A stretch of 59,374 nt of DNA from Chloroflexota bacterium (GTDB lineage Bacteria; Chloroflexota; Dehalococcoidia; Bin125): assembly GCA_009838735.1 (NCBI GenBank), contig VXQZ01000046.1, forward strand, positions 1 through 59,374, in the 5' to 3' direction. The translations under genes were made by a program, and so were the position numbers. The number at the start of each line of letters is the position of its first letter. The stretch's first letter is position 1. Positions 11,860 to 15,971 of the stretch are shown piece after piece. The notes under the pieces were generated by a model, which was given only the letters and a program-made list of their open reading frames with translations, was not told the DNA's origin and made no database searches.

Positions 11860-14289
11860 ATGACCCGGTTGTTCCGATTGGCGCTCGGCGCCCTTGTTGC
11901 GCTGTCTCTGGCAGCCGCAATGGTCGTCGGCTGCTCTGACGACGACCAGGCACAGCCTCAGCAGCAAGAGCAGGCGGCTGCTGAACAACAGGCCCAGCCT
12001 CAACAACAGCAACAACAAGAGAGCGAGTCGGCCGCGCCGGCCCGATCGAGCTCGACCCAGGAGCAACAAGACCAGCAATCGCAACCTCAGGCGGTATCCG
12101 GCGATCCGTTGAACATCGTCGTGTCGACGCAAGTGATCGCCGACTGGGTCCGCCAGGTCGGCGGCGACCACGTCGAGGTTCGGGCGCTGGTTCCCGCCGG
12201 GGCCGACGCCCACACGCTCGAACTGAGCGTGGCCGACATTCGCGCGGTGGCAGAAGCAGACCTCGTCATCATCAACGGGGCTGGTCTCGAAGCGTCATAT
12301 CAAGACGCGATCCTCGAGAACGCCGAGCACGTCCTCGACCTGGCCGAAGCAATCGAGGAGGCCGGATACGAACTCGCGCCATTCAGTGCAATGGCGGCGG
12401 AGCATGGACACCACGACGAGCATGAAGGCGAAGAGGCCCATGAGGATGAGGATGGGCACGACCACGAAGAGGATGACGCCCACGACGACGAGGAGATGCA
12501 CGACGACGATCACGGCGCGGCCGAGGCCGTTGGTCGTCTGCTCGTCGCCGACGCCGTAGAAGCGCACCTATCCGTCGTCAACCTCTCGGGCGATAGCGTG
12601 AACCGCGGCCTGTTCGAGATTGCGGCCGCCAATGCATCGGTGTACGCCAGTCCGACCCACCGCTACGGCATTGTGTTGGCGCGCGGGCCGGAACCCGACG
12701 ATGACCGCATCCACATCTTCGACGGCGGAACATTCCTTGTCGAGCACGGCGACCACTATGACCTAGTCACAGAGCGGGTCACCCGCCACCCGCTCGAAAT
12801 CGCCGAGGAATGGCCGGTCCACTACGTCAACAGCCACGGCTGGACGGCGATCTTTGCCGATACCAACGGCCATGTGATCCTGATCAACGAGCATGATCTG
12901 ACCAGCTCACCGGGCGACTACGAGCCGATCGTGCTCGAAGCCGGCATTCAGCACGGTGCGGCGTTGGTCATGTCCGATGAACACGTCATCCTCAGTACGA
13001 ACAACCCGGCCTGTACTGAGTTCGTTCCATCAGGAGACTGCCTGCCGATCGGCGTTGAAGTCCGTACGTTCGACAACCAGGTCGTCTACGACGCAGCTAA
13101 CGAATCCTGCCCTGGCCTGCACGGCGAATCGCACAACGCGCACGGCGCGGTCTTTGGCTGCTTCACCGGCGTGCTCTTCGTACAGGCGCACGACGGCGAA
13201 TACGAGCATGAGATCATTCCTTACCCGGCGGAGACTGGCGACCCAGGGGAGTTAGCAATCGGCCAGTACTACGGGCACCATCAAGCCGACAACTTCTTCG
13301 GTCCCGCGACCCTCTTCCCTGACGGTCAGTGTTGCGATCTGGGCGGCGTCTGGCTGGTTGACGTGGCCCACGGCGAGATGCGCGAGATATTCTCTGAGCC
13401 CATTGCGACGGCTGCGTTCTCAAGCGACGGAGAGATCTTCTACCTGCTCGGGGCCGACGGTGTGTTACGCGCATTCGACGCCCACGACGGCGAGCCGGTC
13501 GGGACCGTTCAGTTGGTCGACCCGTTCGAGATCGTGTTCGGTACCCCCACGCCAAAGATGATCGTCGTCGGCGAGTGGCTCTATGTCGCCGACCCGAGCA
13601 GCGGCCACGTGCTTGGGGTCCATCTCGAGCACATGGAGATCGAAGAGGAATGGGAAGTCGGCGGCGCACCGTCGAGCCTGGCCTTTGTCGGCGTCCTCGA
13701 CTCAGGCGGCTCGCCCCACGCAGGCCACGATGAGGACGAACACGGGCACGAGGACGATGGACACGGACATGCCCACCATCACGGTGACGAAGACCCGCAC
13801 TACTGGTTCGACACCGAGCTCGCTTCTGCGGCCATCGTCGCGATCGCTGACGAGCTCAGCCACCTGAGCCCAGGCGCGGCTGACGTCTTCAGCGACCGGC
13901 TTGAGCTCTACCTCGCCGCAATCGAGGAAGCCGATGCTGAGGTGCGAGCGCTGCTTGAGGGCATTAGCGACAGTCAGCGACTACTCGTCACCTTCCACGA
14001 CGCCTTCGGCTACTTCGCCCGGCGTTACGGCCTGGAAGTCGCCGGCTTCGTGGTCGAGGGGCCGGAGCAGGGTGTCAGCGCCGACGCGTTGGCCGACCTG
14101 ATCGAGCTGATCGAGCACGAAGGCGTACAGACGGTCTTCCACGAGCCGCAGTTCGACGCATCGATTCTCGACACGGTCGCTGACGAGAGCGGAGCTGCCA
14201 GGGGCATCATCTGGTCGCAACCAACCGATGACAACCCCACCTATCTGGGCATCCTCATCGGCAATGCGCGGGCAATCGCCGAGCAATAG
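11860..14289 (+). CDS. Zinc-binding lipoprotein with inserted AztD-type metallochaperone domain
   Basis: The protein has 809 residues, against about 300 for normal zinc ABC binding proteins. In order: signal peptide with lipobox VVGC (Cys25); Gln-rich linker 31-80; first half of an AztC/ZnuA fold from 84, with probable ligand His118 in GADAHTLE; His/Asp/Glu-rich loop 181-219; a beta-propeller-like domain from about 221 to 613; a second His-rich stretch 619-643; then the second half of the binding protein with DPH647YWFD and TFH713DAFGYF. The middle region has the hallmarks I associate with AztD, the periplasmic zinc chaperone of the Paracoccus AztABCD system: HRYGIVL, EHGDHYDL, WPVHYVNSHG and CPGLHGE. 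AztD is known to hand zinc to AztC, so donor and acceptor appear joined in one chain. No ATPase lies nearby. Confidence 0.85.
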   Translation: MTRLFRLALGALVALSLAAAMVVGCSDDDQAQPQQQEQAAAEQQAQPQQQQQQESESAAPARSSSTQEQQDQQSQPQAVSGDPLNIVVSTQVIADWVRQVGGDHVEVRALVPAGADAHTLELSVADIRAVAEADLVIINGAGLEASYQDAILENAEHVLDLAEAIEEAGYELAPFSAMAAEHGHHDEHEGEEAHEDEDGHDHEEDDAHDDEEMHDDDHGAAEAVGRLLVADAVEAHLSVVNLSGDSVNRGLFEIAAANASVYASPTHRYGIVLARGPEPDDDRIHIFDGGTFLVEHGDHYDLVTERVTRHPLEIAEEWPVHYVNSHGWTAIFADTNGHVILINEHDLTSSPGDYEPIVLEAGIQHGAALVMSDEHVILSTNNPACTEFVPSGDCLPIGVEVRTFDNQVVYDAANESCPGLHGESHNAHGAVFGCFTGVLFVQAHDGEYEHEIIPYPAETGDPGELAIGQYYGHHQADNFFGPATLFPDGQCCDLGGVWLVDVAHGEMREIFSEPIATAAFSSDGEIFYLLGADGVLRAFDAHDGEPVGTVQLVDPFEIVFGTPTPKMIVVGEWLYVADPSSGHVLGVHLEHMEIEEEWEVGGAPSSLAFVGVLDSGGSPHAGHDEDEHGHEDDGHGHAHHHGDEDPHYWFDTELASAAIVAIADELSHLSPGAADVFSDRLELYLAAIEEADAEVRALLEGISDSQRLLVTFHDAFGYFARRYGLEVAGFVVEGPEQGVSADALADLIELIEHEGVQTVFHEPQFDASILDTVADESGAARGIIWSQPTDDNPTYLGILIGNARAIAEQ

Positions 14290-14391: not shown

Positions 14392-14946
14392 ATGCCGCCA
14401 CCACCATCGAAGGACAACCTGGTCTGGATCGACCTCGAAATGACGGGGCTTGATCCAGCCAGAGATGTGATTATCGAGGCCGCCGTCCTCATCACGGACT
14501 CTGAACTCAACATCATCGCCGACGGTCCGGACATCGCCATCCACCGCTCGGAAGACGAGCTCCGCGTGATGAACGCCTGGAATCGGCGCACCCACCACGG
14601 TTCTGGACTGATCAAGCGCGTCAGGGCGTCGGATGTCACCATCGATCAAGCCGAAGAGCAGGTCCTGGAGTTCGTCCAGGCTTGGACCGTCGAAGGCCAG
14701 GCGCCCCTGTGCGGCAATTCCGTTCACCAGGACCGGCGATTTCTCTATGCCGAGATGCCGCGCCTGATCGATTGGCTGAACTATCGGATCGTCGATGTCT
14801 CCACGGTCAAAGAGCTGGCCATGCGCTGGTATCCCGAAATGGAACCGTTCGTCAAACAGGAGCGCCACCGGGCGCTCGACGACATTCGTGAGTCAATCGA
14901 CGAACTGCGCTGGTACCGTCAGCAGATCTTCAGGCCCACCGACTAA
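14392..14946 (+). CDS. orn: Oligoribonuclease
   Basis: This DEDDh-type 3'-5' exonuclease degrades short RNA oligonucleotides, including linear di-nucleotides. It has 184 residues; the first catalytic acids are in WIDLEMTGLDP (D14, E16), the third Asp is in CGNSVHQDRRFL, and the last His and Asp are in HRALDDIRESI. Length and motifs match the family. Its TAA stop overlaps the stop of the convergent permease gene by 4 bp. Confidence 0.96.
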   Translation: MPPPPSKDNLVWIDLEMTGLDPARDVIIEAAVLITDSELNIIADGPDIAIHRSEDELRVMNAWNRRTHHGSGLIKRVRASDVTIDQAEEQVLEFVQAWTVEGQAPLCGNSVHQDRRFLYAEMPRLIDWLNYRIVDVSTVKELAMRWYPEMEPFVKQERHRALDDIRESIDELRWYRQQIFRPTD

Positions 14947-15971
14947 TCTGCCCGCCCGCGCAGCGAGAAGCGGTCGCCCACACGGCAGCACGCACCCCAG
15001 CAAACGTCGCCGACCCGGCAGCACGCACCCCAGGAGGCGTCACCGACCAGGCAGCACGCGCCCCAGCAGATCCGGGCTCTTCGCCGCCAGCCGGGCGGTG
15101 GGGGTTCTGCAATATCGGCCAACAGGAACTCAAGCGATGGCAACGTCTCGCGCAGACCATGCGGGCCGAACACGAAGGACAGCACCATCAGTAAGACCGC
15201 CGTCAACACAATCGACGGACCGGCCGCCAGATCGAAGTGAAACGACGCGTACAGACCCAGCACCGTCGAAAGCACGCCGACGAGGATCGCCGTCACCATC
15301 ATCAACTTGAATCGGCGAGTCAGCAGCACAGCGGCCGCTGCCGGCGTCACCAGAATGGCGACCGCCAGAATGACTCCGACGAGTCGGAACGCGACGACGG
15401 TTGCCAGCGCGATAAGAACCAGGAGTCCAACCTGCATGAGGCCGACGGGCACGCCCGAGACGGCGGCCACTTCCGGGTCATAGGCCGAGAAGCGCAGCTC
15501 CGGTAGGAAAGAGAGCACCAGTGCGGTGACGACAACCGCCAGGGCCGCCATCACGATCAGGTCGGTCCAGGAGGCGCCAAGGATGTGCCCAACCAACAGC
15601 GAACCCAGGTCAATTGCGAAGGTGCGTTGCCTCGAAATCAGCACGACGCCGAGCGCGAAGAAGCCCGCGAACATGATCCCGATCGCCGTGTCTTCTCGTA
15701 GCCGCCCGCGCAGAGTGAGCAGGGCCACGCCCAACGCCGTCATTACCGCGGCCACGCCGGCTCCCAGCGTGATCAGGACCGCGCCGCCGCCCAGTACCAA
15801 CGCGACGGCCGCTCCGGCAAGCTGAGTGTGCGCGACAGCGTCGCCGAGAAAGGCCAGGCCCCGCAGGACGACGAATACGCCCACCATCCCCGCAGCCACC
15901 GACACAATGATGCCGGCCAGGAGCGCGCGTTGCATGAACTCGAACGACCAGGGGTCCGTCAGCCAGTCCAC
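14943..15971 (-). CDS. Zinc-type ABC permease with Cys-rich repeat tail
   Basis: This integral membrane subunit belongs to the ZnuB/AztB/MntB (ABC-3) family. About eight hydrophobic segments cover residues 10-280, with GLAFLGDAVAHTQLAG near 38 and RLVGVILAVAILVTPAA typical of the family. A normal member would end near residue 295. Here about 40 extra residues contain three copies of an 11-residue unit, WGACC(R/L)VGD plus two, giving eight cysteines. The tail could bind metal on the cytoplasmic side or be a neutral tandem-repeat expansion. It is the likely membrane partner of the zinc-binding lipoprotein. I see no ATPase gene in the window that clearly belongs with it. Confidence 0.88.
   Translation of the reverse strand: MDWLTDPWSFEFMQRALLAGIIVSVAAGMVGVFVVLRGLAFLGDAVAHTQLAGAAVALVLGGGAVLITLGAGVAAVMTALGVALLTLRGRLREDTAIGIMFAGFFALGVVLISRQRTFAIDLGSLLVGHILGASWTDLIVMAALAVVVTALVLSFLPELRFSAYDPEVAAVSGVPVGLMQVGLLVLIALATVVAFRLVGVILAVAILVTPAAAAVLLTRRFKLMMVTAILVGVLSTVLGLYASFHFDLAAGPSIVLTAVLLMVLSFVFGPHGLRETLPSLEFLLADIAEPPPPGWRRRARICWGACCLVGDASWGACCRVGDVCWGACCRVGDRFSLRGRAD
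14974..15070. repeat. 33-bp tandem repeat, three copies, in permease 3' end
   Basis: GGCAGCACGC(A/G)CCCCAG recurs at 14984, 15017 and 15050, an exact 33-bp period that keeps the reading frame and encodes the Cys-rich 11-residue units of the permease tail. Confidence 0.85.

Follow-up and report, generated by a model that had tools for sequence, protein, structure and literature searches.

The fused gene and its parts

The window, the whole 59,374-nucleotide stretch of DNA that was analysed, carries a gene in which an AztD-type zinc chaperone domain lies between the two halves of the substrate-binding protein (SBP) of an ABC importer. Its parts and the nearby permease gene are given below, together with the ligands mapped on them.

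11860-14289, + strand: whole fused lipoprotein gene, 809 aa, ATG start (Pfam and NCBIfam profiles; structure match)
11860-11934, + strand: signal peptide and lipobox, sequence MTRLFRLALGALVALSLAAAMVVGC
12109-12399, + strand: binding-protein N-terminal half, residues 84-180, including ligand His118 (Pfam ZnuA profile positions 1-98)
12400-12519, + strand: His/Asp/Glu-rich linker 1, residues 181-220 (pLDDT <50)
12520-13701, + strand: AztD beta-propeller, residues 221-614 (NCBIfam AztD; PDB 6ck1 and 6cmk; Z 45.7 to 6ck1)
12745-12762, + strand: AztD zinc site 2 motif H296-G-D-H299-Y-D301 (aligned to PdAztD His99, His102 and Asp104)
12820-12822, + strand: AztD zinc site 1 ligand His321, equivalent to PdAztD His124 (alignment; 69/69)
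12952-12954, + strand: AztD zinc site 1 ligand His365, equivalent to PdAztD His167 (alignment; 68/69)
13120-13122, + strand: AztD zinc site 1 ligand His421, equivalent to PdAztD His218 (alignment; 68/69)
13108-13161, + strand: cysteine pair Cys417 and Cys434, a disulfide in AztD (each 69/69)
13702-13785, + strand: His-rich linker 2, residues 615-642 (pLDDT <50)
13786-14286, + strand: binding-protein C-terminal half, residues 643-809, with ligands His647 and His713 and the family Glu762 (Pfam ZnuA 86-262)
14943-15971, - strand: ABC-3 permease of the zinc/manganese type, likely partner (Pfam ABC-3, 1.6e-65)

The Pfam ZnuA profile matches the fused protein at 1.3e-68 and 231.8 bits (cut-off 29) in two stretches, the second of which spans residues 628-808. 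In the genome scan, profile positions 1-98 and 86-262 are covered by the N- and C-terminal halves, respectively. Because the profile breaks between the halves, the insertion point coincides with the site of the His-rich loop of cluster A-I binding proteins, just before the second metal histidine, His647 (motif EDPHYWFD). Linker 1 is a remnant of this flexible loop.

The NCBIfam AztD model (NF038015) aligns to residues 290-610 with 119.7 bits and an E-value of 1.2e-34, below its naming cut-off of 400 bits. A PDB sequence search with the middle domain as query recovers both solved AztD proteins, 6ck1 (E about 1e-15) and 6cmk (E about 1e-13). Judged by these sequence matches, the middle domain is an AztD homologue, not a named member of the NF038015 family. 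The first-pass annotation had proposed an AztC/ZnuA-like fold split at its His-rich loop by an AztD-type domain of about 390 residues, with borders at residues 221-613 and at 84-180 plus 644-809; the profile matches bear out this reading, and the borders are correct to within a few residues. Its naming of the host holds for a cluster A-I SBP and fails for AztC specifically. On the host halves, the AztC model NF040870 reaches 168.7 bits against a cut-off of 350, and the NCBIfam MntC model scores nearly the same (171 versus 169 bits), both far under their cut-offs. The host is thus a general cluster A-I (ZnuA, PF01297) binding protein. The lipobox VVGC occupies residues 22-25, and the lipid anchor would sit on Cys25, which is unchanged across 17 close relatives.

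Predicted structure

An AlphaFold model built from the 69 fused sequences, in which model residues 142-535 correspond to protein residues 221-614, has a mean pLDDT of 86. Long stretches with pLDDT below 50 are confined to the two His-rich linkers, the stretches that the first-pass annotation had placed on both flanks of the middle domain. Residues 221-614 superpose on the AztD of Paracoccus denitrificans (PdAztD) with a Z-score of 45.7 and an rmsd of 2.3 Å over 362 of 372 residues, and Foldseek gives a TMt of 0.87 for an AztD-like propeller. The outer parts jointly match MntC, TroA and AztC with Z-scores of about 33 (32.7-33.1) over about 260 residues. As both fold matches occur in one model, the SBP and AztD folds are each complete within a single chain. 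The two termini of the propeller lie next to each other and join it to the His loop, beside the metal cleft. The pTM of 0.59 leaves the relative placement of the domains in the model open.

Zinc ligands, cysteines and linkers

The published zinc ligands of PdAztD (PMC6689063) were mapped onto the fused protein through alignment to 6ck1 and compared across 69 distinct fused sequences that reach down to about 29% identity. The site 2 ligands H296, H299 and D301 are invariant (69/69), as are Cys417 and Cys434 and, in the SBP, His118, His647, His713 and Glu762. The three site 1 histidines are kept in 68 or all 69 proteins. PdAztD His408, a C-terminal ligand of site 2, has no fixed counterpart; a histidine falls at a median of 8 residues past the domain end, and H620 and H623 of linker 2 lie near the position expected for His408. 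The linkers range from 18 to 92 residues, with a median His/Asp/Glu content of 64%.

The fourth ligand of AztC, Asp279, has been replaced: the window protein reads IIWSQPT here, and almost every fused relative also lacks the Asp (often SGSLG). A loss of Asp279 caused by the fusion was considered and rejected: the unfused sister at locus L073 also lacks an equivalent, and the matching Asp is present in the fused proteins of L110 and L119. The loss is therefore a trait of the lineage rather than an effect of fusion.

Reality and distribution of the fusion

The window genome is a 56-contig draft assembly, which leaves room for an assembly chimera or an annotation artefact of two adjacent genes. 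Such an origin is, however, close to inconceivable. A second fused gene occurs in the same genome on contig C55, as an 804-residue frame that is 71% identical across AztD and the stretches flanking it. Within the first 60 relatives, 12 of the genus's 14 other genomes carry the fusion, as do two from outside the genus. A search for the architecture across GTDB genome contigs and 393 genomes of the class yielded 69 distinct, complete frames with N half, AztD and C half, each uninterrupted, some of them in chromosome-level records (L073, L094, L109 and L129), and the structure model is confident across both domains. The second copy and the recurrence of the fusion in many genomes, chromosome-level assemblies included, led us to reject misassembly, which the first-pass annotation had named as grounds for refutation. 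Its other ground, a middle domain that does not match AztD, fails as well: profile, sequence, fold and zinc ligands all identify the domain as AztD. The E-values, together with 69 sequences of the same architecture, also exclude a chance match.

Most fused proteins are labelled Dehalococcoidia or Chloroflexota, several Caldilineaceae and a few Acidimicrobiia; the bin names suggest that many of the genomes come from sponge microbiomes. Free-standing AztD genes are found in the class as frames of about 465 residues (L134-L136, L139, L141 and L145), and also in Proteobacteria, Poribacteria and one actinobacterium (L122-L128).

Several variants accompany these forms. A 994-residue frame (L056:4228-7209, with a cut copy in L057) holds two tandem AztD domains and no binding protein. 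In Poribacteria (L124:3523-5880 and L126:5815-8175), AztD is followed by about 330 residues with an ending like FlgD-Ig or a sorting tail, and these genes adjoin an ordinary binding-protein gene. At L107 and L111, the N half and the AztD/C half are apart or out of frame, representing frameshifted or decayed copies or sequence errors. Upstream of the C55 copy lies an apparent 3' end of a peroxiredoxin (BCP) gene (L008:11785-11970, AAGGCC..GCGGACGGGCC..GTCCGCCTAGATCGATT). A BCP gene precedes the window copy, and similar relics stand ahead of dispersed fused copies in L029, L034, L035 and L037. These relics suggest that the BCP tail and the fused gene were duplicated as one unit.

Probable transporter partners and regulation

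Gene neighbourhoods were counted over 63 distinct fused loci with flanks. An ABC ATPase gene directly follows the fused gene in 27 of the 63, at spacings from a 6-base overlap to an 80-base gap, and in 24 of those 27 an ABC-3 permease comes next. A further 8 loci have a permease downstream, with no ATPase directly after the fused gene. No transporter gene lies within reach in 18 of the 63, and the contig ends in 2. The closest operon-type relative of the window locus, L042, has the fused gene, an ATPase overlapping its stop codon and a permease.

In the window genome, the fused gene and the permease do not form an operon; they converge on each other, with orn (14392-14946) in between. This order of fused gene, orn and convergent permease recurs in 8 distinct loci, every one in the genus of the window. 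The C-terminus of the permease (14943-15100, - strand) is a Cys-rich tail with three near-repeats of WGACCxVGD. The best of the unassigned ATPases in this genome, an orphan metal-type ABC ATPase with a His-rich C-terminal tail (DGHDHH...HEHQEGHRHG), is encoded on contig C46 (L052:7628-8518, - strand) and is a possible partner of this permease. A second metal ABC operon, on contig C10 (L009:7807-10503), comprises a binding protein without a His loop, an ATPase and a permease, and is followed by a cation-ATPase-like gene; its metal is probably manganese or iron.

Perfect palindromes of the Fur-family type lie upstream of three operons: AATGAGAATGATTCTCATT (L060), GATAATGATTATCATTATC (L062) and AATAAGAATGGTTCTTATT (L042). 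A search upstream of the window gene found no metal-responsive operator or Fur-type palindrome. One Fur-family gene was detected in the window genome.

AztD as a probable exchangeable cassette

A common vertical history of the AztD part and its host halves is rejected, as their trees disagree. A tree built from the binding-protein halves groups together the 15 proteins from the genus of the window (SH-aLRT 100). The AztD tree scatters the genus and places the window's AztD with L053-L057 and an Acidimicrobiia-labelled set (SH-aLRT 100). Constraining the AztD tree to keep the genus monophyletic comes at a cost of 259 log units (AU p 2.7e-5), and keeping the members of the window's AztD group together in the tree of the halves at a cost of 456 (AU p 8e-4); these p values are somewhat optimistic because the groups were picked after the trees had been seen. 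Pairwise distances correlate at 0.76 between the N and C halves, versus 0.25 between the N half and AztD and -0.03 within the genus. For example, the AztD domains of the window and L053 are 79% identical, and their halves just 39% and 46%. The long DNA match between the two begins and ends at His-rich stretches (residues 181-614).

As far as sequence comparison reaches, AztD has evolved independently of the host halves, as both the trees and the distances show; this amounts to cassette-like behaviour within His-rich loops. The simplest account would be a swap of AztD between host proteins through the repetitive DNA that encodes the loop.

Pairs of binding proteins with and without the insert stand in tandem at L073:1699-7749 and L095:5434-9182. 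On the Caldilineaceae chromosome of L073, an unfused binding protein, an ATPase, a permease and a fused copy are consecutive. Outside the insert, the fused and unfused binding-protein genes match at 89-99% of their DNA, and the junction of the insert lies in the His-rich repeat. L095 has a comparable pair, built on a binding protein very unlike that of L073. The unfused copies of both loci nest within groups of fused ones in the tree, which suggests that they arose by in-frame loss of the insert. The balance tips modestly towards AztD being a cassette that recombination at His/Asp/Glu-coding repeats can swap, insert or remove in frame, giving one-chain relays in many hosts.

Proposed mechanism and alternative functions

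In the Paracoccus studies (PMC6689063, PMC7463823), zinc departs AztD from site 2 only, and the step that limits the rate is the association of AztD with AztC. AztC cannot do without its flexible loop, which has been modelled within the AztD pore, and the transfer site lies close to the AztD termini. With AztD spliced by these termini into the loop, site 2 would stay near the cleft and the slow encounter would be removed. This biochemistry and the architecture together favour the intramolecular transfer that the first-pass annotation had suggested, with zinc moving from site 2 to the three metal histidines of the SBP. We infer that the metal is zinc, that it is donated from site 2 and that transfer occurs within the chain. 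Scarce zinc would be gathered at the cell surface by the His-rich linkers and the AztD sites, and ligand exchange would carry it from AztD site 2 onto the three SBP histidines within that chain. The zinc-loaded binding half would then dock onto the ABC permease, the intramolecular step having taken over from the slow AztC-AztD encounter. The docking geometry of Paracoccus cannot hold unchanged, since the loop is divided into two linkers. The favoured reading, with a probability of roughly 0.68, is that the fused protein serves a zinc ABC importer as its substrate-binding lipoprotein and contains a chaperone of its own that passes zinc intramolecularly. In its favour are the two intact folds in one chain, the conserved zinc ligands and cysteines, the His/Asp/Glu-rich linkers, the operons with ATPase and permease genes, and the Fur-type palindromes. 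Against it count the divided loop; the missing Asp279, thought to complete transfer, which the unfused L073 sister lacks as well; the pTM of 0.59; the permease outside an operon in the window genome; and the 18 of 63 loci without a transporter gene.

The AztD insert might instead act with the linkers as a zinc buffer or antenna, from which zinc reaches the SBP by dissociation without direct hand-off. The linkers together with the two AztD sites would have room for several zinc ions, the transfer-completing Asp of AztC is absent, and binding proteins without AztD persist in the lineage (L073 and L095). However, site 2, the sole Paracoccus site for which transfer has been shown, is among the most strictly conserved features (69/69), and a mere buffering role is unlikely. 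Transfer in trans, with AztD loading neighbouring chains or an unfused paralogue and fusion providing co-expression and membrane anchoring only, would suit the unfused sisters that adjoin fused genes at L073 and L095 and the genomes with two fused copies. It is nevertheless rather improbable: precise, repeated insertion into the very loop that contacts AztD is unnecessary for trans transfer, and close unfused sisters occur at just these two loci.

Some other cluster A-I proteins also act as adhesins. An abandonment of zinc import, with the propeller turned into a surface domain of adhesive or structural function, or with manganese or iron as the imported metal, could accommodate the 18 loci without a nearby transporter gene and an MntC score as high as that of AztC on the SBP halves (NCBIfam). 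The zinc ligands, almost completely conserved in the two domains, and the operons with ATPase and permease argue against such a change, as does the His-rich loop, described as a mark of zinc specificity in PMC7463823, and this reading is very improbable.

Comparison with known systems

The closest known systems are AztC/AztD of Paracoccus denitrificans and AztD of Citrobacter koseri, components of the AztABCD zinc importer (PDB 5w57, 6ck1 and 6cmk). The fused protein shares with AztC/AztD the two folds, the AztD zinc sites, the cysteine pair, the three SBP histidines and an ABC ATPase and permease. AztC and AztD are, however, two separate secreted proteins, whereas here AztD lies within the SBP loop of one lipoprotein. 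In addition, identity to AztD is about 20%, the SBP is equally near AztC and MntC, and the Asp279 ligand is absent.

AdcA of streptococci also combines a ZnuA-like SBP and an accessory zinc domain in one lipoprotein, and its domains meet at an interface that includes the His loop (PMC7858048). Its accessory domain is ZinT, attached C-terminally through an 11-residue linker, in contrast to an AztD inside the loop. Pfam finds no ZinT/YodA match in the fused protein, whose chain terminates in the SBP fold, and the NCBIfam AdcA model aligns to the SBP part alone, with a best stretch of 128-284 of 517. Members of cluster A-I such as ZnuA, TroA and MntC have the host fold and metal histidines in common with it, but their loop is short or His-rich, whereas here it houses a folded domain of 390 residues. 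TIGR03772, the anchored repeat ABC transporter substrate-binding protein, is a cluster A-I match of 156 bits, below its cut-off; we know of no AztD domain in that family. The open-access literature searched, in the passages covered, holds no description of an AztD-in-SBP architecture or of AztD exchange, and none of the papers listed for AztD mentions a fusion of this kind in its title or abstract.

The AztC-AztD complex, in which zinc is handed over, is short-lived and so far known from modelling only. A natural chain of donor and acceptor, joined at the essential loop, may make it possible to capture the transfer state, determine its structure and follow its timing, and the natural pairs with and without the chaperone provide a built-in control. 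More broadly, a low-complexity metal-binding loop may be a place where an entire folded domain can insert and be exchanged.
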